Source: Bolinopsis microptera
Lineage: Eukaryota; Ctenophora; Tentaculata; Lobata; Bolinopsidae
Reading direction: 5' to 3'
DNA: 64,000 nt
Assembly: GCF_026151205.1 (NCBI RefSeq)
Contig: NC_087078.1
Coordinates: 9,378,675-9,442,674, forward strand
The translations under genes were made by a program, and so were the position numbers. Under the pieces are notes generated by a model that saw only the letters and a list, made by a program, of their open reading frames with translations, was not told the origin of the DNA and did no database searches. Below are positions 13,401-50,902 of this stretch, piece after piece. Every line of letters begins with the position of its first letter. Within the stretch, counting starts at the first letter, position 1.

Positions 13401-15844
13401 TCTCGTGTCTGTAAAATTGGACCCTTCTTCCCTAGCACTTAATTAAAAGGGTTAGCTTACTAGCACTAGTGAGTTAACTGGTAAACAGTAAAGATCACCA
13501 TAAATTATCAGCTTCTCATAAATTGTAACTCCATTCTGTGCGCGCTACGCAGTTTATATTTTGAACCTATTTTAACGTTGATATCAATGTGCTTTTTCAC
13601 ATATTATTATGTAGGTGCAGCATCGGAATGTCCATCCCTAAAAGGTGTGCGACGTTTCTAATCTTAAACAGTATCCGATAAATATCAAATTGTGGAAAAA
13701 GTTTATATTTCTTCTTGTAAGGTATCATCCAGCTCCCATGATTTAGTGAAAAGTTACAAAAACTCTCATCTTTTATAGACATTACATTTCTAAATTAGGC
13801 TTAATAACCTCGCAGCTGTAATCACGATCAGCACTATCCACATGCTCAACAACTTAATAGCCTCATTATCAGTCATTAAACCTCTTAACGGGGCCCTGCG
13901 AACCCTTTCAATAATAATATGACCCCGTGAAGATCGAATATTAGCAATTTAAAATATTATATTATATTTATTATATTATATTATACCAGCACGTTAATGT
14001 CAGATCACAAGCTCTGTTGTAATTATATTGGTTGCTGGCCACGTTGCAGTGGGAAGATAACAACCTTTGGACTACATAATGGGCAAAGGACTAAAGTTCA
14101 ACGGTTCGTGCGCGTGAGATGGCTCAGGACCCCGCCTATCAGAAACATTTTATAAGTATAACTAACAGCCGTTGTTGCTCATTATGTTTTATATTCGGGC
14201 TTCTATAAGTATTAGTTTTGCCAACTAAGATATTTACTGTTACCTTATTGTCGAAAATTATTCTACATGTATGGCTATACCTTATCAACTTAACATTTAT
14301 TTTTGATTTTCACCTCACAATAATGAAATAAAACATTCAATTCGTATACTTCTATTTTAGGAAGACACAGAAATGTCAGCATTTCCAATGATGTTAACCC
14401 TGGCTTTAACAGCACTTCTCCATTATGGTAAGTTGAAATTAAAGTCTTATGTTACATCCAAATAATAAAAAGACCCAAAAGTCCATTAAAGGTTATTGCA
14501 AACCTTGTATCAAGATTATTCATAAATTGTAGAAACCTGTCTCTCCCTCAGGACCTTTGGCAGTGAGAGCAGAAAACACACTCATTGATATAAAGAGTTC
14601 AGAAGCTAAGAGTCACAATCCAATCAGACCGCCCTCTAACGCACATGATGGGGACTACAGTACGTTCTACAGCGTGAAAAATGATGCTGCAGGGATTTCA
14701 GGGAACTTTCTGAAACTCTATCTGGACGGTCTATACACCATCTCAACAGTGAATGTAACGAATAGACATGATTATGGACCTAGCATTAATAGATTCATAA
14801 ATACGATTGTTATGGTTATAACAACAGATGCTGCAAGGTTAGGGGCTGATAACACAGAGACGGACTGCGGCACTGTGACAGGTAGTTTATCAAACTAAGA
14901 TTTGGGCTGATTAATAGATTTCTGTACTTCATAAACGGTTAACGTGGCGTATGTTAACTGACTAAAAAATAAAATGATCTTTCTATACCCAAAATCTATA
15001 ACTTTTTACAGAGATACAGAGCAGCAGCAGCCAAGAGAAGCAGACTTACCCGTTCGACTGTAAAGGTGGTAAAGGCGACACCATCTGGATTACGGACACA
15101 GACTCCGGGAAAAATGGGCACCAAATTTCAGAAGTGAGGGTTTACGGAACATCTTTTCCGAGTAAGTCAATAATATTAATTCAATTTAACATCATTAACG
15201 TAGGAGATAACACGCGCACAGGCCACAGCGCGACCACTTTTATCAAAGCAAAGAGCACCACCTGCTCAGCAGACAGCAGGAATATGTTTACTCCTTAACC
15301 AAGATATCTAATGGGAGAGGGGTGACTATGGGAACTTCTTGTGTCACGAAAACTGGACCCTCCTACTCAAGCAATAAATTAAAAGGGTTAGCTTCAGGTA
15401 AAAGTAGTTGAACTTACCTTGTATACAGCACCAGCAACTGTAGCACAGATGTGATCGTGACTCAAAGCAGTTCCGTGAGACTTCATAAAATCCAGATTCT
15501 GTGTTATGACGTCACCTGGAGGAAGACCAAATTTAAAATCAATAGAAAAAAAAAACGGACGTCTTGAAAAATTTATCTTGAAACGCACAATGCCCATATA
15601 AGGACCTAACCAGGAATAACACGTGATGCCCATATAAGGACCCAACCAGGAATTGAATAACACGTGATGCCCATATAAGGACCTAACCAGGAGTTAAACG
15701 TGATGCCCATATAAGGACCTAACCAGAAATAACACATGATGCCCATATAAGGACCTAACCAGGAGTAACGATGTGTTGCTCCAACTCTTCTCCCTGTGAA
15801 GCTATCACTCTAGTCCTCTTGTAAGGAGCTCGTATTATCTCCAT
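4467..15844 (-). CDS. EXOSC2: Exosome complex component RRP4
   Basis: Cap subunit of the RNA exosome, binding RNA through S1 and KH domains. Six exons on the minus strand join in phase: 15844-15760 (start ATG), 15515-15418, 5720-5616, 5389-5249, 5128-5039 and 4589-4467. In order they show VTPGDVITQNLDFMKSHGT, the S1-region motifs RYRGEIGDVVVGRITEVQQ and LDCQLQLSSVYLPG, DELMMREYF, LHMRSNKYGKLPEGVLIK and the KH signature VILGNNGFVWV. The assembled product is about 214 residues. The C-terminal 70-80 residues usual for RRP4 were not found. Intron 2 (15417-5721) is 9.7 kb and encloses three lectin genes on the other strand and a TTAA-flanked element. Exons 1-2 are duplicated at 28.66-29.06 kb. The donor of exon 3 (GTTTTT) is weak. 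Identity is secure. Confidence 0.92.
5721..6049. other. EXOSC2 intron with GTTACTA repeats
   Basis: Contains alternating GGTTACTAGCAGTTACTAT-type units and their reverse complements (5735-5900). No coding signal found. Confidence 0.6.
6050..6750 (+). repeat. About 54-bp C-rich minisatellite, 13 copies
   Basis: The unit contains ACATCTGGAACTAGATAAATACGT, then an AACAGAAAGACTACCCG or AACAGCACGACTACTCC variant, then a C run broken by single Gs. The two variants alternate in a higher-order pattern (one type-2 unit every three or four units). The complementary strand has G runs able to form quadruplexes. Confidence 0.95.
6946..7017 (-). other. tRNA-like sequence (tRNA pseudogene or SINE head)
   Basis: On the minus strand an A-box TGGCCTAGTGG and a B-box GGTTCGAATCC are correctly spaced within 72 bases, and the D and T arms can be drawn. 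The anticodon stem has a mismatch, position 33 is C rather than T, and the acceptor stem pairs only partly. It probably has Pol III promoter character but is not a functional tRNA. Confidence 0.6.
7035..7313 (+). pseudogene. Relic of a fucolectin-like gene exon
   Basis: After a GGTAACTAT microsatellite the frame reads QTYTFNCKGSRGDSVLIKD, matching the third exon of the intact lectin copies (QTYPFDCKGGKGDTI). The following residues lose the ISEVKVYG motif and no upstream exons are present. The 3' flank (7290-7400) is the same as that at 13460-13580, so this is the remnant of an extra tandem unit. Confidence 0.7.
8136..8506. repeat. Long hairpin, two 170-bp arms, 31-bp loop
   Basis: 8136-8305 and 8337-8506 are inverse copies with few differences; for example, AACACCCTAAAATGCTTCCC is mirrored by GGGAAGCATTTTAGGGTGTT. 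It forms the centre of the fold-back part of the TTAA element. No protein. Confidence 0.93.
8509..9640. mobile_element. Nested element with about 23-bp terminal inverted repeats
   Basis: AGGGGACATCTACTTAAGG at 8509 is mirrored by CCTAAGTAGATGGCCCCT ending at 9640, splitting the right fold-back arm between GCC and TAAAT. Inside are repeated pyrimidine-rich CAAAACCACCCCCTCCC stretches and an internal copy of the right end near 8664. No transposase frame found. A right-end copy also lies at about 11350-11413. Confidence 0.65.
9392..9545. mobile_element. hAT-type MITE, copy 1
   Basis: Starts CAGGGACAAAAGGATTTCGCG and ends with CCTTTTGTCCCTG; flanked by the 8-base direct repeat CCCCCCCT on both sides. 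154 bp, non-coding, same family as 26177-26325. Confidence 0.85.
10190..11193 (+). CDS. Secreted fucolectin-like protein, copy A
   Basis: Four exons: 10190-10244, 10387-10716, 10853-11008 and 11069-11193, totalling 666 nt, an exact multiple of three. Exon 1 encodes a signal peptide (MLAFPMMLTLVLALLLHYG). Exons 2-3 encode a galactose-binding-like fold of the fucolectin/tachylectin-4/pentraxin (FTP) type: NFLKLYLDGLYTISTVNV, NRHD, DCGTVTG, then TYPFDCKGGKGDTIMITD and ISEVKVYG. Family members bind fucose or galactose; binding here is untested. Reading through intron 3 is also open, so the last exon is uncertain. An acceptor (TATTTTAG) lies 12 bases before the ATG. The gene lies inside a TTAA-flanked element. 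Confidence 0.75.
11621..12152 (+). other. Upstream region of lectin B, duplicated before lectin C
   Basis: About 11675-11840 matches 13880-14060. This is the shared 5' flank of the lectin tandem unit and probably contains its promoter. No coding signal. Confidence 0.6.
12153..12946 (+). CDS. Secreted fucolectin-like protein, copy B (3' end altered)
   Basis: Exons 12153-12207 (signal peptide, MSAFPMILTLVLALLLHYG), 12330-12647 and 12791-12946 keep the FTP-type motifs GNFLKLYLDGLYTIS, VTNRLDGHTNRF, DCGTVTG and PFDCKGGKGDTIWITD. The terminal exon of the other copies is degraded here and amplified into four tandem units (13039-13400). A stop follows shortly if intron 3 is retained. The gene may still give a shorter product, or it may be a pseudogene in progress. 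Confidence 0.65.
13039..13400 (+). repeat. About 89-bp tandem repeat of the lectin terminal-exon region, 4 copies
   Basis: Units start GCAAAGAGCACCACCTTCTC at 13039, 13136, 13225 and 13314. The first 40 bases correspond to the last coding exon of copies A, C and D, so the repeat amplifies an exon together with downstream flank. Confidence 0.92.
13401..14372 (+). other. 3' flank of lectin B and 5' flank of lectin C
   Basis: 13460-13580 matches 7290-7400, and 13790-14060 matches 7560-7630 plus 11660-11840. It provides the uninterrupted version of the site where the TTAA element inserted. No protein signal. Confidence 0.65.
14373..15298 (+). CDS. Secreted fucolectin-like protein, copy C
   Basis: Four exons 14373-14427, 14552-14881, 15012-15161 and 15222-15298 give 612 nt (203 residues plus stop), a multiple of three, which supports the exon model. 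Signal peptide MSAFPMMLTLALTALLHYG; FTP-type motifs as in copy A. Exon 3 begins differently from its paralogues (QSSSSQEKQTYPFDCKGG) because the acceptor region was rewritten, yet the frame is kept. An acceptor TATTTTAG lies 12 bases before the ATG, as in copies A and B. The gene lies in EXOSC2 intron 2, antisense, about 120 bases from EXOSC2 exon 2. Confidence 0.78.
15593..15770 (-). repeat. About 36-bp repeats carrying the EXOSC2 exon 1 donor, 5 units
   Basis: Read on the minus strand, the exon 1 end and donor TCCTG|GTTAGGTCCTTATATGG recur about every 36 to 40 bases, linked by GCATCACGTGTTATT. The copy at 15760 is the true exon boundary; the others lie in the intron and reproduce a potential 5' splice site each time. 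Confidence 0.88.
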
Positions 15845-17410
15845 GTTTACTTAAATCTAATGAGGTAGAGGGGATTATACAAGAAACCTTTAGAAGAACA
15901 AGCGTTTTATTAAACTAATTTAAGTGTAAATAATTTAGTCAAAGGCAATACTTGTAATGCTACTTGGGGGTAGTAAGCTTGGTTTCAATTTTGATCCTTC
16001 TTTGTCTTACAACTTATAATCTCAGTTGACAACATGGCTGATGTTTGACTACAATAAACACGTGATGCCCATATGGATGAGCTTGTGTTTGACTACCGGA
16101 GAATCAAACGAGTGAACGTTTTAACAAGAATTGCGCCCGTTGTTTCGTTTTGGCGGACGCTAGATTTCCATTTCACATTTACTATAAATTTAAGTATAAG
16201 CTCCAATCAGCTCACTTCAGTCTTCATGATAATAATATTGATAAATTATGCATTAAGTACAGGAAACACTTGAAATTCAGTTCAATTGCCAAAGAACTTA
16301 ACTTGTAAAGCAAAGAACTTAAATTGTAAGCAAAGGTAACTATACTCGTGTACACATGACACATCAATACACTACGCGTGCCACGTACAAATTGGGCTTA
16401 TAACCTAATATTATACATTACATCGTATACATTAAAACACAGTTGCGCCGCGCATTCATAGATCACAGGCTATCTATACATCACATCTCCGCAAGCAATC
16501 CTTGCGCGCGCAACTTTTTCGTTGCATGGTTACTAACGGAAGTAAGGAAGGACTGACGACATATTTAGACCCACCTACAACCTACGTTACTGCAATTTCC
16601 AAAATCCACGTTTTTCTGAAAAAACGTCCATTCGTAACCTTTCACTATTGCCTTTTTTCAAAAGGGTGAAAAGGAAAAAATATGTTCCGTTTTTAATGTT
16701 ACAAAATACATGATATTACTTCAAATAATTGCCAGGTTATTCAACGAAATTGCATCTGAAATTCAGTCTTCTGAGTTCTGAGGTCAATATTTACAATTAA
16801 ATAATATCAAATATTTTGGTTTAGAACTCATTAATGATGTCACTCCGGAATAAGTTCATCAAACAATTTGATGCCAACAAAGACATTTAACATTGGTTGA
16901 TTGGTTCTATTAAGTCAGCGATAATAATTAATATCTTTAGTCAGCAGTATGATCTATGAATTTAATAATTGTTAAAAACAACTTGATAAAATATTTCAAG
17001 TCATACTAATAACGTCATACTAATAATAAGTCATACTAATAACGAGGCAAACAACTGAAGGCTCAACAAAATACAATTAATTATCAACAACAATTATAAA
17101 TTAACGTATAAAATAAAACATCAGTTTTTCTCGTGAGATCGCTGATAAAAGACGAAGGAGACGGCTGTATCCCAGGCTGAGTGTAAAGCAAAGTCCTTTA
17201 TTTTGTGTTTACTTGTAGTGTGATTCCACTGTGCCACCTGAAATGTACCGTTATTTGTAAGTTAAGTTAAAGCCAATATACCCTGATTATTGGCTTTAAT
17301 CTGACTGGATAATATGGTATTAACTATTATCCATTCACACAAGCCAGATTATTATTAATTCCCATAATTCTTTTTTTTTTCTGAAGTAAGTGAATAATAA
17401 TTTAAACAAG
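15845..17410. other. Upstream of EXOSC2, non-coding part of the duplication
   Basis: AT-rich, expected to include the EXOSC2 promoter. 16119-16677 is absent from the second copy (29347), so it is an insertion here or a deletion there. No terminal repeats or frame identified. Single copies of the ACACGTGATGCCCATAT motif occur at about 16050. Confidence 0.55.
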
Positions 17411-17845
17411 AGTAGTACTACAATAAACACGTGATGCCCATATAAGGGTATATAACTAACCGAGCAGTACTACAATAAACACGTGATGCCTATATAAAGG
17501 TATATGACTAACCAAGCAGTACTATAATAAATACGTGATGCCCATATAAGGGTATATGGCTAACCGAGCAGTACTATAATAAACACGTGATGCCCATATA
17601 AAGATATAAGGGTATATGACTAACCGAGCAGTACTATAATAAACACGCGATGCCCATATAAGGGTATGTGACTAACCGAGCAGTACTACAATAAACACGC
17701 GATGCCCATATAAGGGTATATGACTAACCGAGCAGTACTATAATAAACACGTGATGCCCATATAAGGGTATATAACTAACCGAGCAGTACTACAATAAAC
17801 ACGCGATGCCCATATAAGGGTGTGAGACTAACCGAGCAGGTGGTG
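17411..17845 (-). repeat. About 52-60-bp repeats carrying the RAD54L exon donor, 8 units
   Basis: Each unit on the plus strand reads AATAAACACGTGATGCCCAT, ATAAGGGTATATGACTAACC, GAGCAGTACTA. On the minus strand every unit ends CTGCTCG|GTTAGT, the same junction as the functional RAD54L exon at 33387. The core CCTTATATGGGCATCACGTGTT is shared with the EXOSC2 exon 1 array. Confidence 0.93.
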
Positions 17846-17910
17846 TCAGCTTCCTCAGGAGGTGCTTTAGTCTGAATATTGTTAATACACCTCTTACATT
17901 GCACTTTGCA
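17833..17910 (-). pseudogene. Relic copy of a RAD54L exon
   Basis: The reading [14 protein letters not shown] is present on the minus strand as in 33387-33459 (with a changed base before it), but a 7-base insertion at the acceptor removes the normal splice boundary and phase. No neighbouring RAD54L exons occur here, so this is a by-product of the segmental duplication. Confidence 0.75.
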
Positions 17911-18272
17911 GTTTGGAGGGAATGGTATTAGAAACATAGAGTGAGTGATATAAAGAGGAATTATTGATACAAATTAAGATGGAAAAGATGGAACACATAG
18001 CTAGCAACTGCATAGTGCATACCATTACTGTGTGGCAATGATAAGTGGAAACGAACAGGACACACAGGAAACGATGTAACAGAGTCGATATATTTTAATG
18101 TTGCCATGGGGTGGCAAGTCCCCATTCACCAGTCTGTTAGCTCCTGTTAAAATCAGATTTATTTTATTTGTTGTTATTATATAACTGTAGATTAGGCAGT
18201 AGTAGGGTTTACTACTTACAGAATTAAATTCTGGCTTGTTTAGTCCTTCACAGCGAAGGTGGTGCCTTACTC

Positions 18273-28661: not shown

Positions 28662-29062
28662 CTTGTATACAGCACCAGCAACTGTAGCACAGATGTGATC
28701 GTGACTCGGAGCAGTTCCGTGAGACTTCATAAAATCCAGATTCTGTGTTATGACGTCACCTGGAGGAAACAAATATTAAAGACCAAATTTTAAATCAATA
28801 GAAAAAAAAAAACGGACGTCTTGAAACATTTATCTTGAAACGCACAATGCCCATATAAGGACCTAACCAGGAATAATACGTGATGCCCATAAATAAGGAC
28901 CTAACCAGGAATAACACGTGATGCCCATATAAGGACGTAACCAGAAATAACACGTGATGCCCATATAAGGACCTAACCAGGAGTAACGATGTGTTGCTCC
29001 AACTCTTCTCCCTGTGAAGCTATCACTCTAGTCCTCTTGTAAGGAGCTCGTATTATCTCCAT
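28662..29062 (-). CDS. Second copy of EXOSC2 exons 1-2
   Basis: Exon 1 (29062-28978, ATG to a GTTAGG donor) and exon 2 (28759-28662) match the first set in length and phase; exon 2 has a visible Leu-to-Pro change (GTAPSHDH for GTALSHDH). No copy of exons 3-6 lies nearby, the next being at 5.7 kb across the first set. It could be an alternative first-exon set, a dead duplicate, or half of a gene that continues elsewhere. Four donor-carrying repeats (28850-28980) accompany it. Confidence 0.8.
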
Positions 29063-29986
29063 GTTTACTTAAATCTAGTGAAGTAGTGGGGATTATACAA
29101 GAAAACTTTAGAAGAATAAGCGTTTTATTAAACTAATTTAAGTGTAAATAATTTAGTCAAAGGCAATACTTGTAATGCTACTTGGGGGTAGTAAGCTCGG
29201 TTTCAATTTTGGTCCTTCTTTGTCTTACAACTTATAATCTCAGTTGACAACATGGCTGATGTTTGACTACAATAAACACGTGATGCCCATGGCCATATGG
29301 ATGAGCTTGTGTTTGACTACCGGAGAATCAAACGAGTGAACGTTTTAAAAATATGTTCCGTTTTTAATGTTACAAAATACATGATTTTACTTCAAATAAT
29401 TGCCAGGTTATTCAACGAAATTTCATCTGAAATTCAGTCTTCTGAGTTCTGAGGTCAATATTTACAATTAAATAATATCAAATGTTTTGGTTTAGAACTC
29501 ATTAATGGTGTAACTCCGGAATAAGTTCATCAAACAATTTGATGCCAACAAATAAAAGACATTTAACATTGGTTGATTGGTTCTATTAAGTCAGTGATAA
29601 TAATTAATATCTTTAGTCAGCAGTATGAACTATGAATTTAATAATTGTTAAAAACAACTTGATAAAATATTTTAAGTCATACTAATAACGAGGCAAACAA
29701 CTGAAGGCTCAACAAAATACAATTAATTATCAACAACAATTTATAAATTAACGTATAAAATAAAACATCAGTTTTTCTCGTGAGATCGCTGGTAGAAGAC
29801 GAAGGAGACGGCTGTATCCCAGGCTGAGTGTAAAGCAAAGTCCTTTATTTTGTGTTTACTTGTAGTGTGATTCCACTGTGCCACCTGAAATGTACCGTTA
29901 TTTGTAAGTTAAGTTAAAGCCAATATACCCTGAATATTGGCTTTAATCTGACTGGATAATATGGTATAATCCATTCACACAAGCCA

Positions 29987-32900
29987 TGTTGTTGTAAAGA
30001 CCCGTATAGAGCCACCTCTAAGGGCTTTGAGACAGTTTATTAAATATAATATAATAATCAATAATATCGAAAGTCGTTTCAAAATATTTTCAAACTCAAA
30101 GTTGAAATCACACTCACACTAAAAAGATCAATTATTTTGTCAAATAGTAAAAATTAAAAAAAAAAAAAAAAAAAACTCTCGACACATTACAGTACGTGAG
30201 CATGATTAGCATCAGCATGCCTTTCATTTTATTTGTACCACTTAAGTCCCAGAACCTTTTATCTTTTAATTCTGCTTGCTATAGTTTGTTATAATATACG
30301 GCTATTCTAATTTCTAGAAATTTTCAAGCGTGACGATGAAAATTTTATCGCGAGAATTATCTTTAAGATTTTGTGCATTAAAAAGCCGCGCGGAGTGGGG
30401 TAAGGCTTGCTGTTATCAGCGCTTTGGCAGTGAAAAATATGCTGAAATATGTCAGTCCATTAACTTTAAGCGAACGTTGTTTATTACTGCTCGTTTATTG
30501 TGTGTTTGCTGTCGTCCTATGTTATGTTATGTTATGATATGATGTCATGATTTAGCGATTATTGGTCGCTGTATTACTCAATCATCCCTCATCTATTGGA
30601 CTTCCTCAAACCAGGTACGTTGTGTAGCAGAAATGCTGGCCAGCTGTCCTCTGAGTTAGCTAGTGTTGACTGTTGCTCAAGAAGCACGCGTTTTGCGTTC
30701 GATTTGTAAATATTTATTGAAAATAAGCTAGGTAGGGACGTGATGTTCTTGTTGGTGTCTGTTAGAGCTAGTAAAGGTCCTTTAAAAAAGATGGATGCTT
30801 TGAAACATCGGTTATTGTACGTATCTAGCCATTCGCTACTGTTCTCATGATTTGAACCATGCGTGGGTATGTTATCTGGAAACAAATTTCTAATTGATAC
30901 AGGTACTGTGTTAGGAAAGTGCTTCATGCGGTGCATTAATGTAAGCGCATTCTTTACGATGATGCCGTGTATTGTCAAAATCTCAAATTTGCAGAATGTT
31001 TCTCTGGTGTGAGCTGGCAATTTGCCGTCTTTGTAAAAGTAATTTACATATCCTGGCATAACCATCCGCATTCCTTGCTTTTGTTTACGGAATAATTTCT
31101 CAATGTGACATTTTGCCGCGAATCCCCAGGCTAACGAGCAGTAGTTAACATGTGCCTCAATAAAACTATGGTAGAGTTGTAGTCGCACTTTTAGGGGCAG
31201 ATATCGTTTTAATTTGAACATGATGCCTATGTACCTACTCATTTTTAATCTTACCGCTGTGATATGTTTACACCATGTTAGTTTCTCATCAATTATAACA
31301 CCCAGAAACCGTGCCTCAGTAACCCGTTCAATGTTTGTTCCAGATATGTTGAGACTTATTTTGGAATAATCTACTTTACGGTTACTGAAGACCATATAGT
31401 GGGTCTTCTTCAGGTTTAAAGAAAGCCCGTTGCTACTTACCCAATTCACTAGAAGTGTTGCAATCATAGAGAGCTTACTTTGAATTTCTTCCTCGTTATG
31501 GCCCGTGACTATAATATTTGCATCATCGGCGTAAAGTATGAACTTGGCCAGGTCTGAGATTCCGGGGAGGTCGTTTATATAGATGACGAAGAGTAGGGGG
31601 CCCAGAATAGAGCCTTGAGGAATACCATAATTGATCGTCTTGGGACTGGAATCAACCCCGTTGACTGTGACGAACTGATGACGATCGTGAAGATAGGAGT
31701 CGAACCAGCTTAGTGCTATACCTCTAATTCCGTAGTGTTCCAGTTTTTTAAGCAAAATTTTATGTTCAAGTAGGTCGAAAGCTTTGGAGTAGTCTAACAG
31801 TAGGAGCACCGCAATTTGTTTCCTGCCAAGGTAATGAAGGATAGAGTTCTGTGCATTAAGAAGAGCATGCTCGCATGACATCCCCGGTCTAAAGCCGTAT
31901 TGGCTTTCGAACAGAGAGCCGTTTTTATCAAGAAATTCAAGGACTCTAGTGTGCATTAACTTTTCGTAAATTTTTGAGAATGAGCTAAGAAGAGATATGG
32001 GTCTATAGTTAGTGACATCTGTCTTACTACCTCCCTTGTGGATAGGGATTACGCGTGCAGTTTTAAGAGCAGTTGGAAATATGCCCTGTGTAAATGATGA
32101 GTTTATGATAGTAGAAATCACACCGGTGAACTTGCTATCATGGTTTGCGACTTTCATCGGCCCAATTTTGGTATCCAGTGTTGACTTATTCTTAAATTTT
32201 AGAATCACCTCACTCACCTCAGTTGGTGTTACCGGCCTAAGATACATCGAATTCGATGTTGGGTTCCTAAGATATCTACTAAAACCCCCAGGATCAAAAG
32301 TTTGTCTAGCACTGATCTGTGCTTTAATGTTTGAGGCTATATTTGAGAAGTAGTTGTTAAATTTTGCTGCAACATCGGTGCCATTGCTGATAATAGATCC
32401 GTCGTCGCCTTTCAGTTTTATAGAATTTTTTTCTTTCAACTTCCTGTTCAACAGCGTGTTAATCATTTGCCATTGCTTTTTAGAGTTCTCACAATGCTCG
32501 TCAAAAAATTTCTTATAATATTTTGCTTTAGCTAAGTCAATGTGCTTGTTGCAGAATTTATCAATTTTTTCATACGCTTCATCATTGGCCTTGGTTGAAG
32601 TTGTGATTTTTAGGTGGTGGAGCTTATGCCTTCGCGCACACGCATCCTCTAGCCAGGGAAGAATCCAAGGTTTTGGATCTCTTCGTTCATTTTTACGCCG
32701 CGGCCTGGATTTGTTCAAGGGGTATGCCTCATCATAATGTTTGGTGTAAATTTCACAAAATTTTTCGTACTGTACTTCACAATTTTCGTGTAAACTCACT
32801 TCACTCCAGTCCTCACTTTCGATCAAGCTTTGAAATTTAGCATTGTTAGCTTCGCCAAATCTCCGTGCCTGTTTGATACTTGGTTTTTTACTTGTAACCC

Positions 32901-32989
32901 TCCCGCATGGCCCCTCTCTGTCCCCAAGTAGAAGCGTAGTAAGGGTGGCTAGGTGGTCTGATACGTGTAGAGTAAGCACCTGACAACTT
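29987..32989 (-). mobile_element. 5'-truncated Jockey/CR1-group LINE
   Basis: Comparison with the empty site at about 17371 places the insertion between CACACAAGCCA and GCCAGATTATT. It has a 3-kb body and a 3' end (low coordinate) TTTACAACAACA on the minus strand. The upstream endonuclease and ORF1 are missing. Confidence 0.85.
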
Positions 32990-33012
32990 GCCAGATTATT
33001 GCTAATTCCCAT
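30589..33012 (-). CDS. LINE reverse transcriptase (endonuclease mostly missing)
   Basis: 807 residues. The frame opens with ATG and about seven codons that belong to flanking host DNA (32991-33012); element sequence starts at VLTLHVSDHLATL, the last motif (SDH) of an APE-type endonuclease. The RT domain spans roughly residues 260-540: NYRPISLLSSFSKIYEKLM, QYGFRPGMSCEHALL, LLDYSKAFDLLEH, GIPQGSILGPLLFVIYINDL and catalytic YADDANIIV, then a thumb region. There are no internal stops, so the RT is intact although the copy cannot be autonomous. Jockey/CR1/L2-group by motif style; the exact clade needs a tree. Confidence 0.9.
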   Translation of the reverse strand: MGISNNLASCQVLTLHVSDHLATLTTLLLGDREGPCGRVTSKKPSIKQARRFGEANNAKFQSLIESEDWSEVSLHENCEVQYEKFCEIYTKHYDEAYPLNKSRPRRKNERRDPKPWILPWLEDACARRHKLHHLKITTSTKANDEAYEKIDKFCNKHIDLAKAKYYKKFFDEHCENSKKQWQMINTLLNRKLKEKNSIKLKGDDGSIISNGTDVAAKFNNYFSNIASNIKAQISARQTFDPGGFSRYLRNPTSNSMYLRPVTPTEVSEVILKFKNKSTLDTKIGPMKVANHDSKFTGVISTIINSSFTQGIFPTALKTARVIPIHKGGSKTDVTNYRPISLLSSFSKIYEKLMHTRVLEFLDKNGSLFESQYGFRPGMSCEHALLNAQNSILHYLGRKQIAVLLLLDYSKAFDLLEHKILLKKLEHYGIRGIALSWFDSYLHDRHQFVTVNGVDSSPKTINYGIPQGSILGPLLFVIYINDLPGISDLAKFILYADDANIIVTGHNEEEIQSKLSMIATLLVNWVSSNGLSLNLKKTHYMVFSNRKVDYSKISLNISGTNIERVTEARFLGVIIDEKLTWCKHITAVRLKMSRYIGIMFKLKRYLPLKVRLQLYHSFIEAHVNYCSLAWGFAAKCHIEKLFRKQKQGMRMVMPGYVNYFYKDGKLPAHTRETFCKFEILTIHGIIVKNALTLMHRMKHFPNTVPVSIRNLFPDNIPTHGSNHENSSEWLDTYNNRCFKASIFFKGPLLALTDTNKNITSLPSLFSINIYKSNAKRVLLEQQSTLANSEDSWPAFLLHNVPGLRKSNR

Positions 33013-33055: not shown

Positions 33056-33395
33056 AGCAGTACTACAATAAACACGTGATGCCTATATAAGGGTATATGA
33101 CTAACCGAGCAGGACTACAATAAACACGTGATGCCCATATAAACTATAAAGGCGGGGTGCAACACCTAACCACGCCAATCCCGCCAATCCCGCGTAATCC
33201 CGCCAAATCCCGCGTAATCCCGCGTAATTCCGCGTTATCCCGCGTAATCCCGCCTAATTCCGCAAGTGCGGGGTTAGACGGAAATTGGCGGGGTTATGTG
33301 CTGCACCCCGCCTATATAAGGGAATATGAATAACCGAGCAGTAGTACAATAAACACGTGATGCCCATATAAGGGTATATGACTAACCGAGCAGGT
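33056..33395 (-). repeat. RAD54L exon-donor repeats, 4 units, second copy
   Basis: Same unit as 17411-17845, adjoining the functional RAD54L exon whose donor is CTGCTCG|GTTAGT at 33387. One unit is split by a 162-bp MITE. Confidence 0.88.
33151..33312. mobile_element. MITE with GGCGGGGTGCA ends
   Basis: GGCGGGGTGCA at 33151 and TGCACCCCGCC ending 33312; the interior consists of CCCGCGTAATCCCGC-type units. It sits inside a CCCATATAAGG repeat. An imperfect TATAAA/TATATA flank may be the target duplication. Confidence 0.75.
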
Positions 33396-36300
33396 GGTGT
33401 CAGCTTCCTCAGGAGGTGCTTTAGTCTGGATATTGTTAATACACCTCTTACATTGCAGTCTGGAGGGAATGGTATTAGAAACATAGAGAGAGAGTGATAT
33501 AAAGATGAATTGATACAAATTAAGACGGAAAAGAACACATAGCCAGTAACAGTGTAGTAGCTGCATACCATTACTGTGTAGCAATGATGAGTGAATAATC
33601 AATTGTGTTTTAACATTAACAATTTAGATAAAGGATGTTATCATTGATTCTACTGTTGAACTTTTGCGGAGATATAACAACTAACTTATCGTGAGTATCG
33701 CTGAGAGTATCTGTCTTGAGGTTGAACAGTTCCCTAAGTTCCGAGAGAGAAAAGTGTCGCTCCACATTCTCTTCACAGTCCACCACCGCACTGCTCAAAC
33801 TCTGTAACACAAGGTCAGCATTCAGCAGCGTGAATTTTCCCCGTTTTTATTTTGTAGTTGACAATTAACATTTATATTATTTGGTATTTTATTCAATTGT
33901 TCACATGTATGATGTGGTGTTCACGTAAAAAGTGTCGTAATTGAGTTTTGAGGTCGAAGTCAGATGCCAATCAAAAGAATCCAAAATACAATCGAAAAGC
34001 TGAGATTGCCCTTCAGTTGCGCTGTAAATCCAGGAACAATACTGATCGTTAAGTAACGATTAAAGTAACCATAGTAATTAGTAACCATAGTAACGACCCT
34101 AACCTTCTTATGAGTCTGTCTCTGAAATATCTTCTCCTCAATAGTTCCAGTAGTCAGCAGTCTGTATATAAATACAGGTTTCTTCTGTCCGTCCCTCCAG
34201 ACCCGTGCCATAGCCTGCTCATCATTGGCTGGGTTCCAGTCAGGGTCAAACATCACCAGTCTGTTAGCTCCTGTTAGTTATATAATTAGTCAAACATCAC
34301 CAGTCTGTTAGCTCCTGAGTTTTGGTTAAAATTAGATTTATTTTATTTGTTGTTATCATATAACTGTAGATTAGCCCCCCCCCCCCCCCCCCCCCCCCCC
34401 CAGATTAGGCAGTAGTAGGGTTTACTTCTTACAGAATTAAATTCTGGCTTGTTTAGTCCTTCACAGCGAAGGTGGTTCAATCAATTATTTGTTAGGTTTC
34501 AATTGTGTTTTGCCACAATATGTAGAATTCTATTCTATACCTATCAGGTTCAACCCACACGTAACCTAGTAACCTAGTAACCTAGTAACCTAGTAACCTA
34601 GTAACCTAGTTACCTGGTAACATAGTAACCTAGTAACCTAGAAACCTAGTAACCTAGTAACCTAGTAACCTAGTAACCTAGTAAACCAGTAACCTAGTAG
34701 CCTAGTAACCATAGTAACTTAGTAACCATACCTATCAGGTTGAGACCACACCCTCCTGCTTTGCTGCTCAACATGAACAGGAAGTCCTTACTGTCAGGGT
34801 CATTGAACTTGTCTACTATCTTCATACGCTTCTTAGCTGTCATTGAACCGTCCAGACGTACAAACTGGTACCTGTAGGAGTGTGTGGATGATAGGGATGT
34901 TATTGCAGATCTCAAAATATTAGACTACTACTATGTCGGAGCTAAGTCCGATCTACGCCAGAAAACCCCCTCCATATATCCCTGTCCCGCATCAGGGTTC
35001 GCAGTTCCTCTTTAGAGTTTGTCCCAACTTCCTTCAGTAGCATAGACAAGTAGCTTTGTCTTGGTCGGCCTTGCTGTGCTCTACCGTGCGTAGGTTCCCA
35101 TAAGACTAAATCACTGGCAAGTAGCTCAGGATGTCGGATGCAGTGTCCCGCCATTTTTAATCTCCTGCTTCGTAACTTGTTTGACAGCCTTGGGAGGCTA
35201 CCATACAAAGTTATATTGCTGACCTTGTCCTTCCATGAGATACCCAGCACCATACGCAACATCTTTGTGTATGTCCCGTCCAAACTTTTCTCTTGAGCCT
35301 TTGTCAGTGTCCAGGTTTCTGATCCGTAGAGCAGTACTGATTCACAAGCCGCTATGAACAATCTAATCTTTAGGCTCTTTGAGAGTTTGGATTTCCAGAT
35401 ATCCTTCAGTCTATGTAGGGCACCCCACGCTTTTCCCTTTCTAACCCTTATCTCCCTATCTGTGCTCTCAATCCAGGAGCCTAAGTAGATGAAATCATCT
35501 ACATTTCCTATGGCTTCCCCGGATCGACTTTGTAGGTCGCTAGATCGATCCTCCATATTCAGTGTCATGACCTTGGTCTTGCCTTCGTTTATGTGTAGTC
35601 CCACGCTTGCTGCCGCCGATTCTACTCTGAGCAGGAACTCGTTAGCCTTGTCCATGTCCTCAGATATAAGTGCTATATCATCTGCAAAGTCCACATCGGT
35701 GATGATCTTGGGCCCCACTCTTCTGCTTTTTCTACGTTCGAGGGTGAGTCCAAGTCGCTCCGCATCATCGCCTATGGCTTGCCTCATACAGTAGTCGATG
35801 ACTATTGCAAAGAGGTAAGGTGCTAAGGTATCACCCTGTAACACACCTGCAAGTATCTCGAACAATTCAGTTTCTCCGTCTGGAGTTAGGACTTTGGCCA
35901 TTGTCTTCTCGTACATGAGCCGTATAAGCTGCACGATTTTGACTGGAATGCCGTAAGCTTCTAGAATCTTTAGCATTTTCCCACGATGTACACTGTCGAA
36001 AGCCTTCTTAAAGTCTATAAATGTCAGAACAGCTGGCAGTTTCCGACTCTTGACACCCTCTATAAGACGTCTCAGTACCAATATCTGTTGAGTTGTTGAC
36101 CTTCCTGGTCTGAATCCATTCTGGTTTCTACGCAGAATTGTCTCGATTTCTGGCTTCAACCGGTTTAGAACCATCTTGTTTAGAGACTTGGCAACTAGGG
36201 ATGACAAGCTTATTCCCCGATAGTTCATTGGTTCGCTAAGGTCGCCCTTCTTTGGAATTGGTATGATGTTGGCAGTTGACCATTGGTCTGGTTTCTCACC

Positions 36301-39300
36301 TTTCAAAATATTAGAGATATATCAATAAAGTGTTATATAGCGTTGGAACAGAGTCAATATATTTAATGTTGCCATAGGATGAAAAGTCCCCATTCATCGC
36401 AGCCCGCTAGTTTCACTGCCTTCTAATACTAAAGAGCCATAATATTAAACGTGTAGTGAGAGATAACTTAGTAAACATAGTAACGTACCCTCGGAGTCTT
36501 GCCAGATGTTCGAACACGTCTAGAGTTTGGGTATAGTTGGATACCAGGACAAACCTATCATCAGTCCGGGACTTGGTGGACGCTAAAATACAGTCTAGCA
36601 CTGCCAGCTTACCTGAAATAAGGACGTTAAAATAGAGTCCAGCACAGTTTTGAGTTGCTCCCGTTGTTTTACTCACCGTACAGTCGCTCAATCCTCCAAA
36701 GACCAAGAGCCGCGGTAGTGATATTATAAAACAGTATAAACAATATAAACAACATGTCATGTTCACATCTCAGTAATACTGAACAAAAACTTAATGTCAT
36801 TTGTTGCATAGTGGTGTGAGGTGGGGGGGTACCAATGGCATAAAATGGCATAAATGGCATACGTTTTATGGCATAAATGGAAATTTTTATTGGCCAATTC
36901 TCCATTTATGCCATGAATTTAGGTTCATATTTGACTATAAAATTGGCAAATTATTATTAGATACTTGAATAAGAGACATTGTTTTCATGCTTTATAACGC
37001 TTGGAATGATCGTTAAAGAGTCATATGACAAAATAAAGAAAATAGAAATGTATTAATCAAAAAATGGCATAAATGGCATACGCGTTTTATGGCATAATGG
37101 AAATTTTTGTTGGGCCAATTGTCTCCATTATTGCCATTTATTCCATTGCGGTACCCCCCCTTTGAGGTTCAATCTCTTAATACAAATAAGAAACTAAAAC
37201 GCAGATAATTGGATGATCTAGAAATAACTCATCGGTCTATTCACCTTCTCTAAATATTTAAAATGATAAAATATTAAAGTTCTGTTCAACTCTTCAAAGG
37301 AGTGTTCTCTATCACTGGAGACAGCAACAGTGACTCCTACAACAGGTGCCCCGTTAACTGTTACTTCAAAGACATGACAGAGGAACACAATGGGAAGCTA
37401 GTCCAGAAACTGGGGTCACGTTGAAGAATGACAGAGCTAGTAAATAGAAACCAGCTGCTTAGTGCTTACAAACAATCCACCCCATACGATAAAGTAAGAC
37501 GTCTCTAAGTAACACTCCACTGTAACCTCTATTTATCTATATTACTGCGATCAGAAACCTCTCATTTCGTGATATAAGTTGCATTCAGTAACCTTTCATT
37601 TCTATATACTGCATTAATGGTTGCTGCTCAGTGTGCTGTCGTTACTAATACCCAATTGTGTAAGGGATTCCAGATCTACCAGTGTGGCCTAAACAGTTCA
37701 GATGGTCTACTCTGGTTGTCCCTGCTGGTTACAGTTGTGTTAAGATAACAGACCTCCGATCCGGATATGGTGAGGACAATTACTTAGCTGGGAGAAAACA
37801 CTGTGCCAAACCCATGTAGAGTCCAAGGAACCTAGTAAACCTAGTACCTAAGTCACCTAGTAACCTAGTTACATAGTTAACCTAGTAAACAACTACTTCT
37901 GCTGGGAGATAACCACTGTGCTAACCCAGGTAGAGTACAAGTAAACCTTGTAACCTAGTAACCTAGTAAACCTAGTAAATAGTAACCTAAGTAACCTAGT
38001 AACCTGTACTAGTAACCAACTACTTCTTGCTGGGAGAACACTGTGCCCAAACCGGGGAAGAGTCCAAATACTGATTAAACTACGGAGTTTAGGAGAGAAA
38101 GGAAACAGCTGTATTACCAAAATATTCACTTATGATTTCTGTCTTTCATCTTTATCTACCTTACCCTTGGAAGTTATTTTTGCCTGCTTTAGTTTCTGTA
38201 ATACTCAAATAAACCTCCATTTTTGAAATGAATATTTCTCTCACTTTATCTGCCTTACCTTGTATTGGAGTTTCATGTATTGGAAGTTCCAGTCAATTTC
38301 CTTAATTTGAACCCTTAATTTTTACACCAGGTTTCCAGGGAGGTACGCCGGGAGATTAAGTGGAATGCGCTGACCAAAATAGTGAACCTCAGATCCCCAC
38401 GCGTGGGCGGAACAAAATACCTGTGTGTACCTAGCAACACTAACTATCACTTCACTGGCTCACAGTGGGGGTATGATGCAGAGTGGGAGCAGTTGTGTGC
38501 GTGGTGGAACTAGTGAAAAGCATACTTGGCAGGACTAACTACCTGTGTGGTAATACAGGGGCTGGACCGAGTTATGATGATCATAATTCGAGTAATGACG
38601 GGCTACTTAGTAACCATAGTTAAAACGACCCTAATTACTGTCCTACTTAGTTACTTATTAGACTTGCTTAGTTAACAAATTAGGATTTTTGCTGGAAATG
38701 GTTCATTCTTTCACTTGGTTTCTATGATCGATATTACGGTAATCTCATACGTTCATTGGACAATAACGCAGTAACACTTTTTGATTTTTAAGAAAATAAT
38801 ATCGAAATCTAATGAAAATGCCAAAACTACATAAGTCTTTATCGTCGATTACGACCAACCCCGTACAGAATGTGATCGTGAAGTAGGTCTAGTGGTCTGA
38901 AAATGATAACGAGAGGAAATGAACGATGAAAAATAAATACCTCAACAAACAAACAAACATACAAAAAGGGACAAAACCAGAATAGTATAGGCTGGAGTTT
39001 TCTGATTGGTGCGTTTCCAGGTGATCGAGAGCAATCTTCCACCCGGGGAAGCCCGTTCTTCGGCCTTCTCTCTGATAGCGCTGGGTCTGGGGTTATTATA
39101 GAAGTAGAGTAAGAGTCAAACTATGTGAAATTATTCATTGCAGTTAGTCGAATAAAATCGGTTAGTAGGCTAATCTATAACGAACTGAACTGACTTGGTA
39201 AGAATGGTACACTTTTCAAACTTTAGATGTGAAAAGTTTTTAACATCTACATTCTCATACCAATGGACCAACAAAACTATAGTACAAGTGCTAACTCACA

Positions 39301-42595: not shown

Positions 42596-43375
42596 CATAG
42601 CTTAAAGAAGATAAAGCTGGTATACATGGACTGGATCTCTTTCAGCTCCACTTCAGTTATATTAGACTTGTTAGATTTACATCTGTTCATGGGGTCTATT
42701 CTGTGGAGGATAACTTTGTTAATCTGAACACTGAGTAGGGGAAATCATGGAGGACATAATAATACTTGAAACCGTGATTGTTTGAATTGAATATAATAGG
42801 GTTTTGTGTTCTAAGTAATAACAGAGTTTCGACATAAGGTAATTTCTGCTTCTTTACAGTCTGAACGGAGAAATCAAACAAGTCGGATTTAAAAATTCAA
42901 TTGTCAATCTATAAAACATTCTCAAATAAGTATAAACTGAAATCAAGGACCATAAAAACATTAATAAGTTATCTATTTGCGTTTTAAATTCATAATCATA
43001 AAGATATATGTAATTCATTTTATAATGAAGCTTTGAAAAATCAAACCCTCTGAACAAAGTAGCCATTTACAAAACCCAATCACTTACTAACGTCAAGACA
43101 TTAAGCACAATCTCCACTCTAAAAACATAGGTCACTATCTCGGAGGTATCTAACGATACACTCAATCAAGATCCATAATTTTAACTTACCGTCATCATCC
43201 CATGAACAACATTCACAGGCTAGGACCCAGGGGAGGAACCCGTCCACAACTCAGTGAAAGTGTCGGTCAGATGTATGGGGGCAGTTACATAAACACTACC
43301 GCTACTGCTACATATTCTGGGGTTCCTCCTAGCGTCCTTGTGGTACCTGCAGAGTGGGTATAGTTACCAGGCACG
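42596..43375. other. No confident gene
   Basis: A minus-strand stretch near 43200-43330 reads ACECCSWDDDG before a GTAAGTT donor and might be a further exon of the neighbouring reductase, but I cannot support it. Confidence 0.4.
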
Positions 43376-43640
43376 TTACCATGGCAACAGGGGGGTTTGC
43401 ATGGGCAACACGGGGGTTACGATGTAACAAATACGGGGGTTACCATGGCAACACGGGGGTTTACAATGGTAACCGGGGTTAGCATGGTAAAGGGGGGTTA
43501 GCATGGTAATCGGGGGGTTTAGCATGGGTACAGGGGGGTTAGGCATGGTATACAGGGGGGTTAGCATGGTAACAGGGGGGTTAGCATAGGTCACAGGGGG
43601 TAAGCATGGTAACAGGGGGGTTACATGGTAACACGGGGGT
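43376..43640 (-). repeat. Irregular GGGGGGTTAGCATGGTAACA repeats
   Basis: About twelve units of 18-22 bases with frequent single-base slips. Translation gives a Pro/Met/Leu-rich run that is not a gene. Confidence 0.85.
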
Positions 43641-47705: not shown

Positions 47706-48911
47706 TTAAGTTTGTTTGATAACGTTTCCGTTTTTAGATGTTTCCATGTATATACCAATTACAGCTACCACACATAGGGCCAGGAAGGAGAATATCATGA
47801 TTTTATCAATTTTATCTATTAGGTAAAACAAGCTTCTAAAAAATCCCTTGATAAGCAAAACTAAGTTCCTGAAAAATCTCTTAATAGCATCTTCACCAAG
47901 GGTTTCAAAGTTTCGTCTTTGAGCCTCTTTTGTAGCTTCACTTCCAGAACATTTTAGTTTTTGGTGCACCAAAGCTGTCTCACGTGGCCCAGTAATAATA
48001 GTGTCCGGTGGAACAGGGGAGGTGGAGAGAGGTTTGTTTGAAGTCTCAATCTTCCTGCGACGAGAACGTCCGTAGTAGTCAGTTAAGATGGACTGCTGTG
48101 CTGGAATGATATGTTCAGCCAACATGTCAAGGCATGTTTGCCTAGTCTCCTTTTGATGGTAGGGTTTTTCAATAACCGATCTCCAAGTTACGTCACTTGA
48201 ACTTTCAGAGAGACCATCAAGATTGTAATCCGAGTCTCTCAAACTACGGTGTCTTTCTTCATCTAATCCAAGAAAAACATCTAGCGAGGCAGCTCCATCT
48301 GCTGCAGCGTAAGTCTTCATTTCCTGGGAGAGCTGAAATATCTCCCAATCAACTTGTAATTCAGATTGCTTAACCAGGCGCCGATGCAGAATATCTTCAA
48401 CCAGCTGTTGAAGGCTTAACTTTGGCATAAACCCACTGCGTTTAACTTTTAACTCAGGGTCAGAGAGAGCCGCTTCCTCCAAACAATACTCAAAGTATTG
48501 TAGTTGTTGGATTAGTAATGGGGAGAAGGATTCTTTGCCAACAGCAAGGCACCTCAGATCCAACCAGCTTTTAACAGATATTTGAAACTGACGACGTATT
48601 CTCACTATCACCTCCTCAATATCAACACCAACCTTTACAACACCTTCATTCAGGAGAATGGAAGACAACTGATCAGGAAGCCAATATTCAGTTTCAAATC
48701 TGCGCACTTGGAACAGGATGACATGTTCTGCTGTTGCTATTTGGATTACGGCTACATCGTAGACACCTTTGGTCTCCCATTTACAATCTAGTCCTATCAC
48801 AGAGTGCTCTCCATCGATGACGTACCATTGTAGGGCGAGATTAGCCTCTTTGTCGTTTCTGGGGATTATTATAGTCCGAGTCTCTTCAACGTGGTACTCC
48901 TCTAATGTCAT
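47706..48911 (-). CDS. DEDDy 3'-5' exonuclease-like protein, paralogue 1 (predicted inactive)
   Basis: 401 residues, uninterrupted. The fold matches the WRN/EXD1/EXD2-type 3'-5' exonuclease domain, residues about 30-215. Motif I reads GLDCKW: Asp42 is kept but the catalytic Glu is Lys44 (AAA codon). Motif II reads VGVDIEEVIVRI: Val101 replaces the Asp found in all paralogues. Motif III YAAAD (Tyr201, Asp205) is intact. With two of four metal-binding acids gone, catalysis is unlikely; a binding or regulatory role is inference. A family-specific block with ILTDYYGRS follows, then a C-terminal hydrophobic segment (IFSFLALCVVAVIGIYM) with a short polar tail, as in tail-anchored proteins. An acceptor TTTCCAG lies two bases before the ATG. 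Confidence 0.9.
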   Translation of the reverse strand: MTLEEYHVEETRTIIIPRNDKEANLALQWYVIDGEHSVIGLDCKWETKGVYDVAVIQIATAEHVILFQVRRFETEYWLPDQLSSILLNEGVVKVGVDIEEVIVRIRRQFQISVKSWLDLRCLAVGKESFSPLLIQQLQYFEYCLEEAALSDPELKVKRSGFMPKLSLQQLVEDILHRRLVKQSELQVDWEIFQLSQEMKTYAAADGAASLDVFLGLDEERHRSLRDSDYNLDGLSESSSDVTWRSVIEKPYHQKETRQTCLDMLAEHIIPAQQSILTDYYGRSRRRKIETSNKPLSTSPVPPDTIITGPRETALVHQKLKCSGSEATKEAQRRNFETLGEDAIKRFFRNLVLLIKGFFRSLFYLIDKIDKIMIFSFLALCVVAVIGIYMETSKNGNVIKQT

Positions 48912-49657
48912 TCCTGGAAAGAGGAGATTTGTTCATCGTATTTTATTTACTGAATTTAATATTATATATACATTGAACATAATATTATAATAGCTATTGG
49001 TTCCCGTGGTTAGACTGGCACTAGAAAGTGACCAATTAGTGACCAATTAGTGACCAATTAGTGACCAATTAGCTTGAGCTACAACCAATTACATAAATCT
49101 CTATTTTTTCTGACAAAGAGTAATTTGAAATTTTACCACAATTTTGTACTTGAAAATCTATTCTAGATACTTTAAAATTTTAAAGCACGAAAATATAATT
49201 AATATCATTTTATCAACTCAGCTGATGGCAAATTTAAAACAGAACCGTAGCTTAATAAATCAATCATACTATCATGAGTAATTACAAAATCAAATTAATA
49301 ATCGACTGAAACTATTTAAAACATAAAATTAAAAAAAGATTAATTATCAAAATTGATTAGAAATTCATCAACGAATAAAAAAATTTGAATTATAATTCGC
49401 ATTCAGTCCTAGTCATTCACTAATCACTATACAATATGTTTGAAATAAAAATCGGTATAAAAATCATTGGTATACAAAATTTATGATCATTATTTACGAT
49501 AAAACCCATCATCTAAACAATCATTATTCAAGGGAAATTTAACATTATTCCAAAAATCAAAGGCTTCTGCAGCTAATATGCAAACATCCCAGAATAATCA
49601 TTGATATGCATTATTCTTATTGCTTTATTGGTTGTTTCATAATTGTTAAAAAACGCC
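48912..49657 (-). other. Spacer between exonuclease paralogues 1 and 2
   Basis: AT-rich with four copies of GTGACCAATTA at 49030-49070. Probably leader/intron of paralogue 1 and 3' region of paralogue 2. No gene. Confidence 0.55.
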
Positions 49658-50902
49658 CTATTTCTTCTTCAGATCCAAGCACATACCAATCACAGTAATA
49701 ACTAGAATTGCCAGAAACGTAAACAAAAAGATATTCTTGATAAGGTTGAACAGGCTTCTGAAAAACCCCTTTATAGCTTCAACGAAAGATTCGTCCTCTC
49801 TTCTTTGACCAGCGTATCTTCTCTCACCGGGCTGCTTTGCGTCTCTTGGTCCAGTAGATTGTTGCCTTAAGTTTAGCAAAGCACTCTCACGTACAGAGCT
49901 GTAGCTGGTAACATCTGGCAAATCGTCTTTTGGTTGTTGCTGTCGGTTTGCGGAAGGACTCTTGTGTACGGAGATGCAGTTGCGAGATTCGTTGGAATGT
50001 ACAACCTGATGACCTCGGCGTCCATAGTAGTCGGTCAATAACCACTTGTGCTGAGGATCTATATTTTCAGCTATCATATCAAGGCATGAAAGCCTAATCT
50101 CTTTTGGAATATATGACTTTTCGATAACTAATCTCCAAGTGAACATATTTGAAGTAATTTTGAGCCATTCAAGATTGTAATCCGAATTTCTCAAATTACA
50201 ATGTCTTGCTTCATCTAGTCCAAGAAAAACATCTAATGAGGCAGCAGCATCTGCTGCAGCGTAAATCTGCAATTTCCGGGGCAGATACAATTCTTCCCAT
50301 TCACCGAATATTTGTAAGTGCTTAGCCTCTTTATCTGATGACTTTTGCAGGCTTCGATTCAGAATATGTTCGACCAACTTTTCGAGACTTAACTTTGGCA
50401 TGAAACCACTGCGCTTAACTTTTAAATCTGCATCAGAGAGGGAAGACCAGTCGGATTCGCATTTTTTCAGTTGTTGGATCAGGTATCAAGTGAAAAAATC
50501 GTTGCTGACAGCAAGGCATCGCAAATCCAACCAGCCTCTAACAGATATTTGAAACTGAAGAAGAATTCTTCTGACATCTTCCTCGATACCAACTCCAGCC
50601 TTAACAATTCTTTCATTCAGAAGAATTGAAGATAATAGTTTGGGAAGCTGATGTTTGTTTTGGAATGTGCATACTTGAAACAATATTACGTAATCTTCTG
50701 TTGCAACTTGGATCAGTGCTACGTGATAATCAGCACGCTTCCGATTAGAGCTAGGGTGGTCAGTCTTCCATTCACAATCTAGCCCTATAACATTGGTATC
50801 TTCATCAATGATGTACTTTTGTACCGCTAAGTTAGCTCTCTTGTCGTTTCTAGGTATTATTATCGTTCGAGTTTCCTCAACGTCATACAGCTTTAACTTC
50901 AT
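49658..50902 (-). pseudogene. DEDDy exonuclease paralogue 2, interrupted by one in-frame TGA
   Basis: The frame opens at ATG 50902 (MKLKLYDVEETRTIIIPRND), two bases after a TTTCTAG acceptor, and shows motif I GLDCEW and motif II VGVGIEEDVRRI. A single TGA at 50488-50486 (after SNDFFT) breaks it. Past the stop the same frame is open to the end with MPKLSLEKLVEHIL, motif III YAAADAAASLDVFLGLD, LLTDYYGRR and a hydrophobic C-terminal anchor (FLFTFLAILVITVIGM) followed by LDLKKK. All four catalytic acids are encoded. It is a young pseudogene, a polymorphic null, a sequencing error, or less likely a readthrough gene. Confidence 0.88.

Follow-up and report, generated by a model that had tools for sequence, protein, structure and literature searches.

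We describe a 20-bp word, CCTTATATGGGCATCACGTG (henceforth the core), which is dispersed through the genome of the ctenophore Bolinopsis microptera and which, at about a quarter of the single-copy sites sampled, lies between the two halves of a short direct duplication of the surrounding DNA. The stretch analysed here (henceforth the window) comprises 64,000 nucleotides, C7:9378675-9442674, and contains tandem arrays of the core at the starts of introns in two genes, EXOSC2 and RAD54L; genome-wide counts refer to the whole assembly of 264.65 Mb in 232 contigs. In keeping with a ctenophore origin, a glutamate-receptor ligand-binding stretch of this genome (L098) matches best, among solved structures, ML032222a iGluR (112 bits) and 4zdm (82 bits), from the ctenophores Mnemiopsis leidyi and Pleurobrachia bachei, ahead of NMDA receptors (63 bits); a stretch of another receptor (L096) matched delta and kainate receptors first, and full-length receptor queries ranked kainate receptors at the top. 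As a dispersed micro-repeat with target duplications the core is both real and unusual, while as regards splice donors it is ordinary. The reading we prefer, and hold with moderate confidence, is that a binding-site-like micro-repeat has spread as short templated patches inserted where breaks were staggered, and was then amplified in tandem.

Dispersal of the core through the genome

In the window, a 21-mer form of the core occurs 18 times with up to 3 mismatches, compared with none in 100 shuffles. Genome-wide there are 64 occurrences of the exact 21-mer and 1,725 copies (846 + 879) of the 20-mer with at most 2 mismatches, the latter often preceded by CT, and the reversed control yielded 0 in each case. 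Many of the 1,725 copies sit in arrays. Specifically, the first 100 exact copies listed collapse to far fewer places, i.e., 53 on contigs C1-C3 (one of which was added from the listings of A/T-swap and transition variants and stands outside these 100), and three on C4, with two long arrays among them, and on this basis we estimate that the core occupies hundreds of sites.

Individual sites were studied in 95 core-drawn loci (L001-L095), found either with the exact 21-mer (its C15 site excluded; this form favours TT after the core) or among the first 100 exact 20-mers listed. The sample leans to unmutated copies and to contigs C1-C4. Removing 12 paralogues and array pieces left 83 loci with 105 clusters, of which 83 are single copies; this set was used for the duplication and donor tests, with clusters less than 80 bp from a locus end dropped. 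The neighbour-flank test likewise used 83 loci, while 11 loci were dropped from the analysis of flank composition, 10 from a comparison of GGTTAG sites and none from an all-against-all comparison.

Over the 105 clusters, base composition in the flanks comes near background within about 4 bp of the left edge of the core and 2 bp of its right edge, with mild excesses of up to 0.45 on the left (the constancy of the core itself in this analysis is a consequence of exact-core sampling). In the all-against-all comparison, matches of at least 60 bp spanning a core were paralogues or arrays as far as they were read, and no longer parent element was read among the sampled loci. A viral or prokaryotic source was likewise rejected, with 0 exact 20-mers in collections of viral and prokaryotic genome contigs, and a literature search on forms of the core sequence found no paper that prints it.

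Exact sites lean towards contig ends, which may not be chromosome ends. On C1-C3 (the corresponding part of the exact 20-mer listing plus the one added site), the outer 10% of the contigs holds 32 of 53 sites against 10.6 expected, or 22 of 43 against 8.6 when sites are collapsed to 100 kb. In the 21-mer list, which covers eleven contigs, the outer 10% holds 15 of 40 sites against 8 expected (P = 0.008) and the outer 15% only 16 of 40 against 12 (P = 0.12). Ten 700-base end stretches from five contigs contained neither the core nor telomeric arrays. Arrays and the end excess on C1-C3 are features shared with dispersed minisatellites, from which the core differs in that, counted by site, 83 of the 105 clusters in the sample are single and what they have in common is mostly the core; counted by copy number, arrays make up much of the listing, and two loci, L031 and L039, are head-to-tail arrays of almost pure core.

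Duplications flanking the core

At 20 of 83 single-copy sites the core separates two halves of a direct duplication of local sequence (score of at least 9 and total gaps of at most 20 bp), the duplicated stretch being 10-25 bp long. The same test was positive for 2 of 1,991 pairings of left and right flanks across loci and for 88 of 830 other points of the same loci (odds ratio 2.7, P = 0.001 against 20/83), the latter rate being high because the genome is full of tandem repeats. At loci with quiet surroundings the contrast was sharper, with 11 of 49 against 20 of 1,225 (P = 4e-9). When all 105 clusters were considered with gaps unlimited, 35 were positive, compared with 31 of 1,000 cross-locus and 106 of 630 same-locus controls. 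The cleanest cases are L002, L033, L047 and L051, where duplications of 21, 17, 15 and 10 bp, respectively, enclose inserts of 21-23 bp. Many arrays repeat the core together with the duplicated target, and in the arrays of L009, L016 and L085 the duplicated stretch reaches about 60 bp. Flanking duplications are present also at sites without donor-like sequence.

One explanation is an ultra-short non-autonomous mobile element with a unit of 20-25 bp, moved by an integrase or transposase acting in trans and leaving a loose target duplication of variable length. Independent sites with the same ends, the inserts of 21-23 bp between duplications of 10-21 bp in the cleanest cases and the high copy number all favour it. 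We nevertheless regard such an element as unlikely. Transposase staggers are fixed in length, whereas the duplications here range from 10 to 25 bp in single sites and up to about 60 bp in arrays; moreover, the core lacks terminal inverted repeats, no longer core-bearing relative was seen among the sampled loci, and some neighbouring copies have additional flank in common (see below).

Unlike DNA transposons and miniature inverted-repeat transposable elements, the core is without terminal inverted repeats, and close inverted pairs were seen only in L030 and L004 among the sampled loci (core copies on both strands, further apart, occur in L018, L026, L028, L035 and L082); its target duplication also varies in length where theirs is fixed, with the reservation that duplications too short for the threshold are missed. 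The variable target duplications of long and short interspersed elements, about 7-20 bp, are matched by the core, with 10-25 bp at the 20 positive single sites. By contrast, the 5' truncation and common 3' tail of these elements are not, as both ends of the core are constant within a few bp in the 105 clusters, which were drawn by exact core.

As a separate observation, the core copy in L041 adjoins a repeat, about 35 bp of whose end matches many places, often as inverted pairs.

Arrays at the EXOSC2 and RAD54L donors

Both arrays in the window hold the same core just downstream of a donor on the minus strand, and each repeats the end of its own exon, as the first-pass annotation of this sequence had described. 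The gene names given there are also borne out by the translated exons, which match exosome RRP4 (E = 5.3e-8) in the case of EXOSC2 and the RAD54-like 1z3i (E = 2e-17) in the case of RAD54L. In window coordinates, the features are:

15418..15515, minus strand: EXOSC2 exon 2 (RRP4 match)
15590..15769, minus strand: EXOSC2 intron 1 array, at the intron start (36-bp unit, 4.9 copies)
15760..15844, minus strand: EXOSC2 exon 1, coding part starting at ATG, then donor G/GTTAGG (RRP4 match)
16057..16077, minus strand: core copy standing alone, about 210 bp before the EXOSC2 ATG and with 3 mismatches to the 21-mer
17121..17237, minus strand: RAD54L last exon (1z3i match)
17410..17839, minus strand: RAD54L array, opening the last intron of the gene (8.1 copies of a 52-bp unit)

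The EXOSC2 unit is composed of the exon end TCCTG, the donor GTTAGG and the core, and the array fills about 170 bp of an intron of 244 bp; the RAD54L unit is composed of the exon end CTGCTCG, the donor GTTAGT, the core and TTTATTGTAGTA. Given that the two EXOSC2-associated and RAD54L arrays have the same core and differing units and edges, local copying of one array into the other gene, which had been named as a possible cause, is rejected. The single copy upstream of EXOSC2 is flanked, in its paralogue L023, by two copies of GTAGTCAAACA. This copy and the RAD54L unit, 1.3 kb apart, have the 11-bp TTTATTGTAGT in common after the core, the GTAGT within it belonging to the local duplication at the EXOSC2-upstream copy.

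The first-pass annotation further proposed a mobile, introner-like or donor-targeted sequence that copies the adjoining exon edge as it spreads. What is supported of this proposal is that the core is dispersed and often arrives together with a duplicate of neighbouring sequence; the targeting of donors is not supported. A generic donor matrix, applied to the same strand over the 40 nt upstream of each of the 105 clusters, gave 7 donor-like sites against 6.9 expected. Most of the sampled clusters thus lie away from donors, an outcome that the annotation had named as contrary to its proposal. Between 10 and 30 nt there was a weak excess (7 against 3.5 expected); the EXOSC2 and RAD54L donors fall below the matrix threshold and are outside the 7, and adding both gives 9.

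An introner or donor-targeted element would account for the core lying directly downstream of donors in two genes with repeated exon ends, for the weak excess at 10-30 nt, and for L009 and L085, in which stretches reading like exon ends with donors are also duplicated. We consider it highly improbable, however, as there is no donor excess over 40 nt, the edges of the core carry no splice site by reading, and exon-edge arrays exist without the core. Two of the latter are found in the window at 1308-1430 and 1685-2622, with a GTTAG donor, in two introns of one gene that we read as PCCA (biotin carboxylase C-terminal domain over two joined exons, E = 1.7e-6, below the curated cut-off); in the second array, exon end and donor GAGAG/GTTAGT are repeated about 13 times in near-identical 72-bp units. 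Introners resemble the core in being repeated sequences with target duplications in some families, and the core touches donors in two genes; it differs from them in its length of about 20 bp, in the lack, on reading, of splice sites of its own and in showing no donor preference in the sample (PMC9860276). Its duplications of 10-25 bp are also variable and longer than the 3-9 bp of those introner families that have one (PMC9860276), although our score threshold is blind to short ones.

GGTTAG as a special site of duplication was rejected, with 4 of 43 at the loci compared with 4 of 41 for GGTAAG, despite 7 of 44 in the window (where a duplicated block is counted twice).

We infer that exon ends are repeated at donors because the duplicated target spanned the donor, i.e., by target duplication plus later amplification that was tolerated there. 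In EXOSC2 and RAD54L the target would have taken in both exon end and donor; the first donor would still be usable and the extra copies would be intronic, so that selection would let the exon-end repeat stand. Repeated exon ends at donors may accordingly be a side effect of local duplications that were tolerated, with no need for mobile introns.

Flanks shared between neighbouring copies

Among pairs of loci less than 300 kb apart, 5 of 54 have at least 8 bp of flank in common, compared with a permutation mean of 0.38 and 0 of 1000 permutations as high; for pairs less than 1 Mb apart the figures are 6 of 107, a mean of 0.76 and 1 of 1000 shuffles as high. The five pairs come from three neighbourhoods, namely C3:1.65 Mb (three pairs), C6:20.1-20.2 Mb and C3:2.0-2.2 Mb. 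Flank shared among nearby copies suggests DNA-templated copying.

Shared flank also counts against RNA-templated insertion, in which a small RNA or a telomerase-like template would be reverse-transcribed into breaks, as with interstitial telomeric repeats. The narrow range of insert lengths, 20-24 nt, at the cleanest sites and the near-pure head-to-tail arrays of L031 and L039 agree with this explanation, and telomeric repeats are described as entering breaks, a minority of them with target duplication (PMC2246262). Like them, the core would be a constant short sequence that enters breaks, sometimes with a target duplication; unlike them, it is not TTAGGG, has in some copies flank in common with neighbours and has no known RNA template. 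With divergent families of the core also present (see below), we judge an RNA template to be very unlikely.

A composite CArG/E-box form

The core has the form CC(A/T)6GG, 4 bp, CACGTG, which we take to be a CArG box, CCTTATATGG, followed by four bases and an E-box, making it a candidate composite site on sequence grounds. It is half A/T, contains one CpG and is not self-complementary. The degenerate form CCWWWWWWGGNNNNCACGTG, with the 4-bp spacing, has 1,361 matches in the genome against 0 for the control, among them families that differ from the main core by 4-5 changes, several of them arrayed. Examples are CCATATAAGG-CAAC-CACGTG and CCTTATAAGG-TAGC-CACGTG, both of which also form arrays. 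As side observations on these divergent families, GTCACGTGAC accompanies them in L109 and L110, further E-boxes are seen in L111 and L117, and TGACGTCA is seen in L113.

Forms allowing only A/T swaps, only transitions in the CArG core or only transitions in the E-box gave 949, 647 and 663 matches, respectively (exact copies included, and inflated by arrays). After collapsing, the non-exact sites on C1 and C2 comprise 7-9 A/T swaps, depending on how neighbours are merged, against 4 CArG-core transitions; the ratio of 9:4 has P = 0.009 if one third is expected and 0.13 if one half is.

A functional composite element that selection maintains or recreates near promoters, with duplications and arrays as ordinary binding-site turnover, would explain why divergent families of the same form keep one spacing of CArG box and E-box and why the EXOSC2 start has two arrays and a single copy no more than 2 kb away; fly regulatory modules, too, are held to be built by local duplication (PMC3188502). 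On the other hand, the spacer GCAT is kept in 949 of the 1,361 matches (arrays inflate both numbers), a conservation that selection on the two boxes alone would not demand, and the exact sites on C1-C3 lean to contig ends. We therefore think it quite unlikely that selection of this kind is the explanation.

The placozoan Mutator inverted repeat and the ctenophore CTEP loop-anchor motifs are, like the core, dispersed and of possible regulatory use (PMC12221973). The placozoan motif is repeat-borne, and the CTEP motif is described as GC-rich with two CpG, so that the core, compared with it by description only, is probably another motif (PMC12221973).

Proposed templated insertion followed by amplification

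Under our preferred reading of short templated insertion, a break with staggered ends, or an end that had slipped and been primed anew, would be repaired with a short patch from an existing copy of the core, sometimes a nearby one. Filling in the staggered ends would duplicate the target on either side of the new core, and unequal exchange or slippage between the duplicated edges would then produce arrays of core plus target edge. A germline DNA-binding protein might make core sites break-prone or good templates, which would explain why the same 20 bp are copied each time; this is the least certain step. The statistics show the dispersal, the flanking duplication at roughly one single site in four, the flank common to some neighbours and the absence of donor preference, while repair of breaks as the route, tolerance at donors and the bound protein are inferred.

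Several results weigh against this reading. At a score of at least 20, the observed rate of duplications (8 of 105) equals that of the same-locus control (48 of 630), so that long duplications prove nothing, and at a score of at least 12 the excess over this control, in a genome rich in tandem repeats, has P = 0.054. No abutting duplication was found at 63 of the 83 single sites, which may be older, blunt or differently made. Empty sites were not seen for L041, L054 or EXOSC2 (among the best 40 of 731 candidates scored for L041 and the best 40 of 612 for EXOSC2). Longer units common to different chromosomes, in L016, L046 and L052, indicate that copying is not only local, and plain patch copying leaves unexplained why the two edges of the copied piece are near-constant. 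Finally, the signal of constraint towards a binding-site form is weak, with 7-9 swap sites against 4 transition sites (see above); changing all four spacer letters gave 0 matches in the genome, and so did changing four E-box letters, so that these two comparisons were uninformative.

Human sites bound by transcription factors in the germline offer a parallel to the proposed role of a bound protein, as they are break-prone and short insertions there often duplicate the motif and build clusters, like those of the core; the difference is that their motif is duplicated in place, whereas the ctenophore core also stands alone at many unrelated places (PMC8559717). A more far-reaching version, to which we give limited credence, is that a composite transcription-factor site behaves as a selfish element, i.e., that binding in the germline makes its sites break-prone and good templates, so that it copies itself with a duplicated target and without a transposon. 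If true, such a site would seed regulatory clusters. With 1,725 near-exact copies of one 20-bp word, some of which still carry the target duplication left when they arrived, two comb jelly genomes could be compared to learn how new regulatory sites can multiply in the absence of transposons, and from what beginnings minisatellites and repeats of exon edges develop.

The duplicated block and other features of the window

The block containing EXOSC2 and RAD54L recurs at 28.8-33.4 kb of the window and two more times near C7:8.84 Mb, so that the core-bearing donor cases in the window number two and not four. The second copy in the window contains:

28847..28987, minus strand: EXOSC2 intron 1 array
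29277..29300, minus strand: damaged core copy upstream of the second EXOSC2
33071..33393, minus strand: RAD54L array, interrupted by an insertion at about 33151-33312

All four genome copies found of the EXOSC2 stretch have the core, so that the insertions probably preceded the block duplication, and the number of array units varies among the copies. The insertion at 33151-33312 is bounded by inverted ends, GGCGGGGTGCA...TGCACCCCGCC, and contains AATCCCGCGT units in a run. At 17895-17920 the two RAD54L copies differ, with ctccaaactgcaaagtgcaatg in the first and ctccagactgcaatg in the second; given the altered acceptor AG and the extra bases, the first copy may be a pseudogene or may splice at a different acceptor. 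Upstream of the first EXOSC2, 16119-16180 is the end of a high-copy repeat with many 60-bp matches genome-wide, and the long matches to the other three block copies begin beyond it.

A second short dispersed word, the palindromic GTTACCATGGTAAC or GTAACCATGGTAAC, has 25 matches with at most 1 mismatch in the window and the sampled loci, both single and arrayed. It is found at 5870, 19039, 27110 and 43375-43573 of the window and in L010, L019, L021, L027, L028, L035, L038, L091 and L101. Open frames at 30589-33012 and 34942-36306 contain the reverse transcriptase domain RVT_1, and six similar open frames are clustered at 47706-57599; the member tested, at 51387-52664, encodes a 3'-5' exonuclease domain (PF01612).

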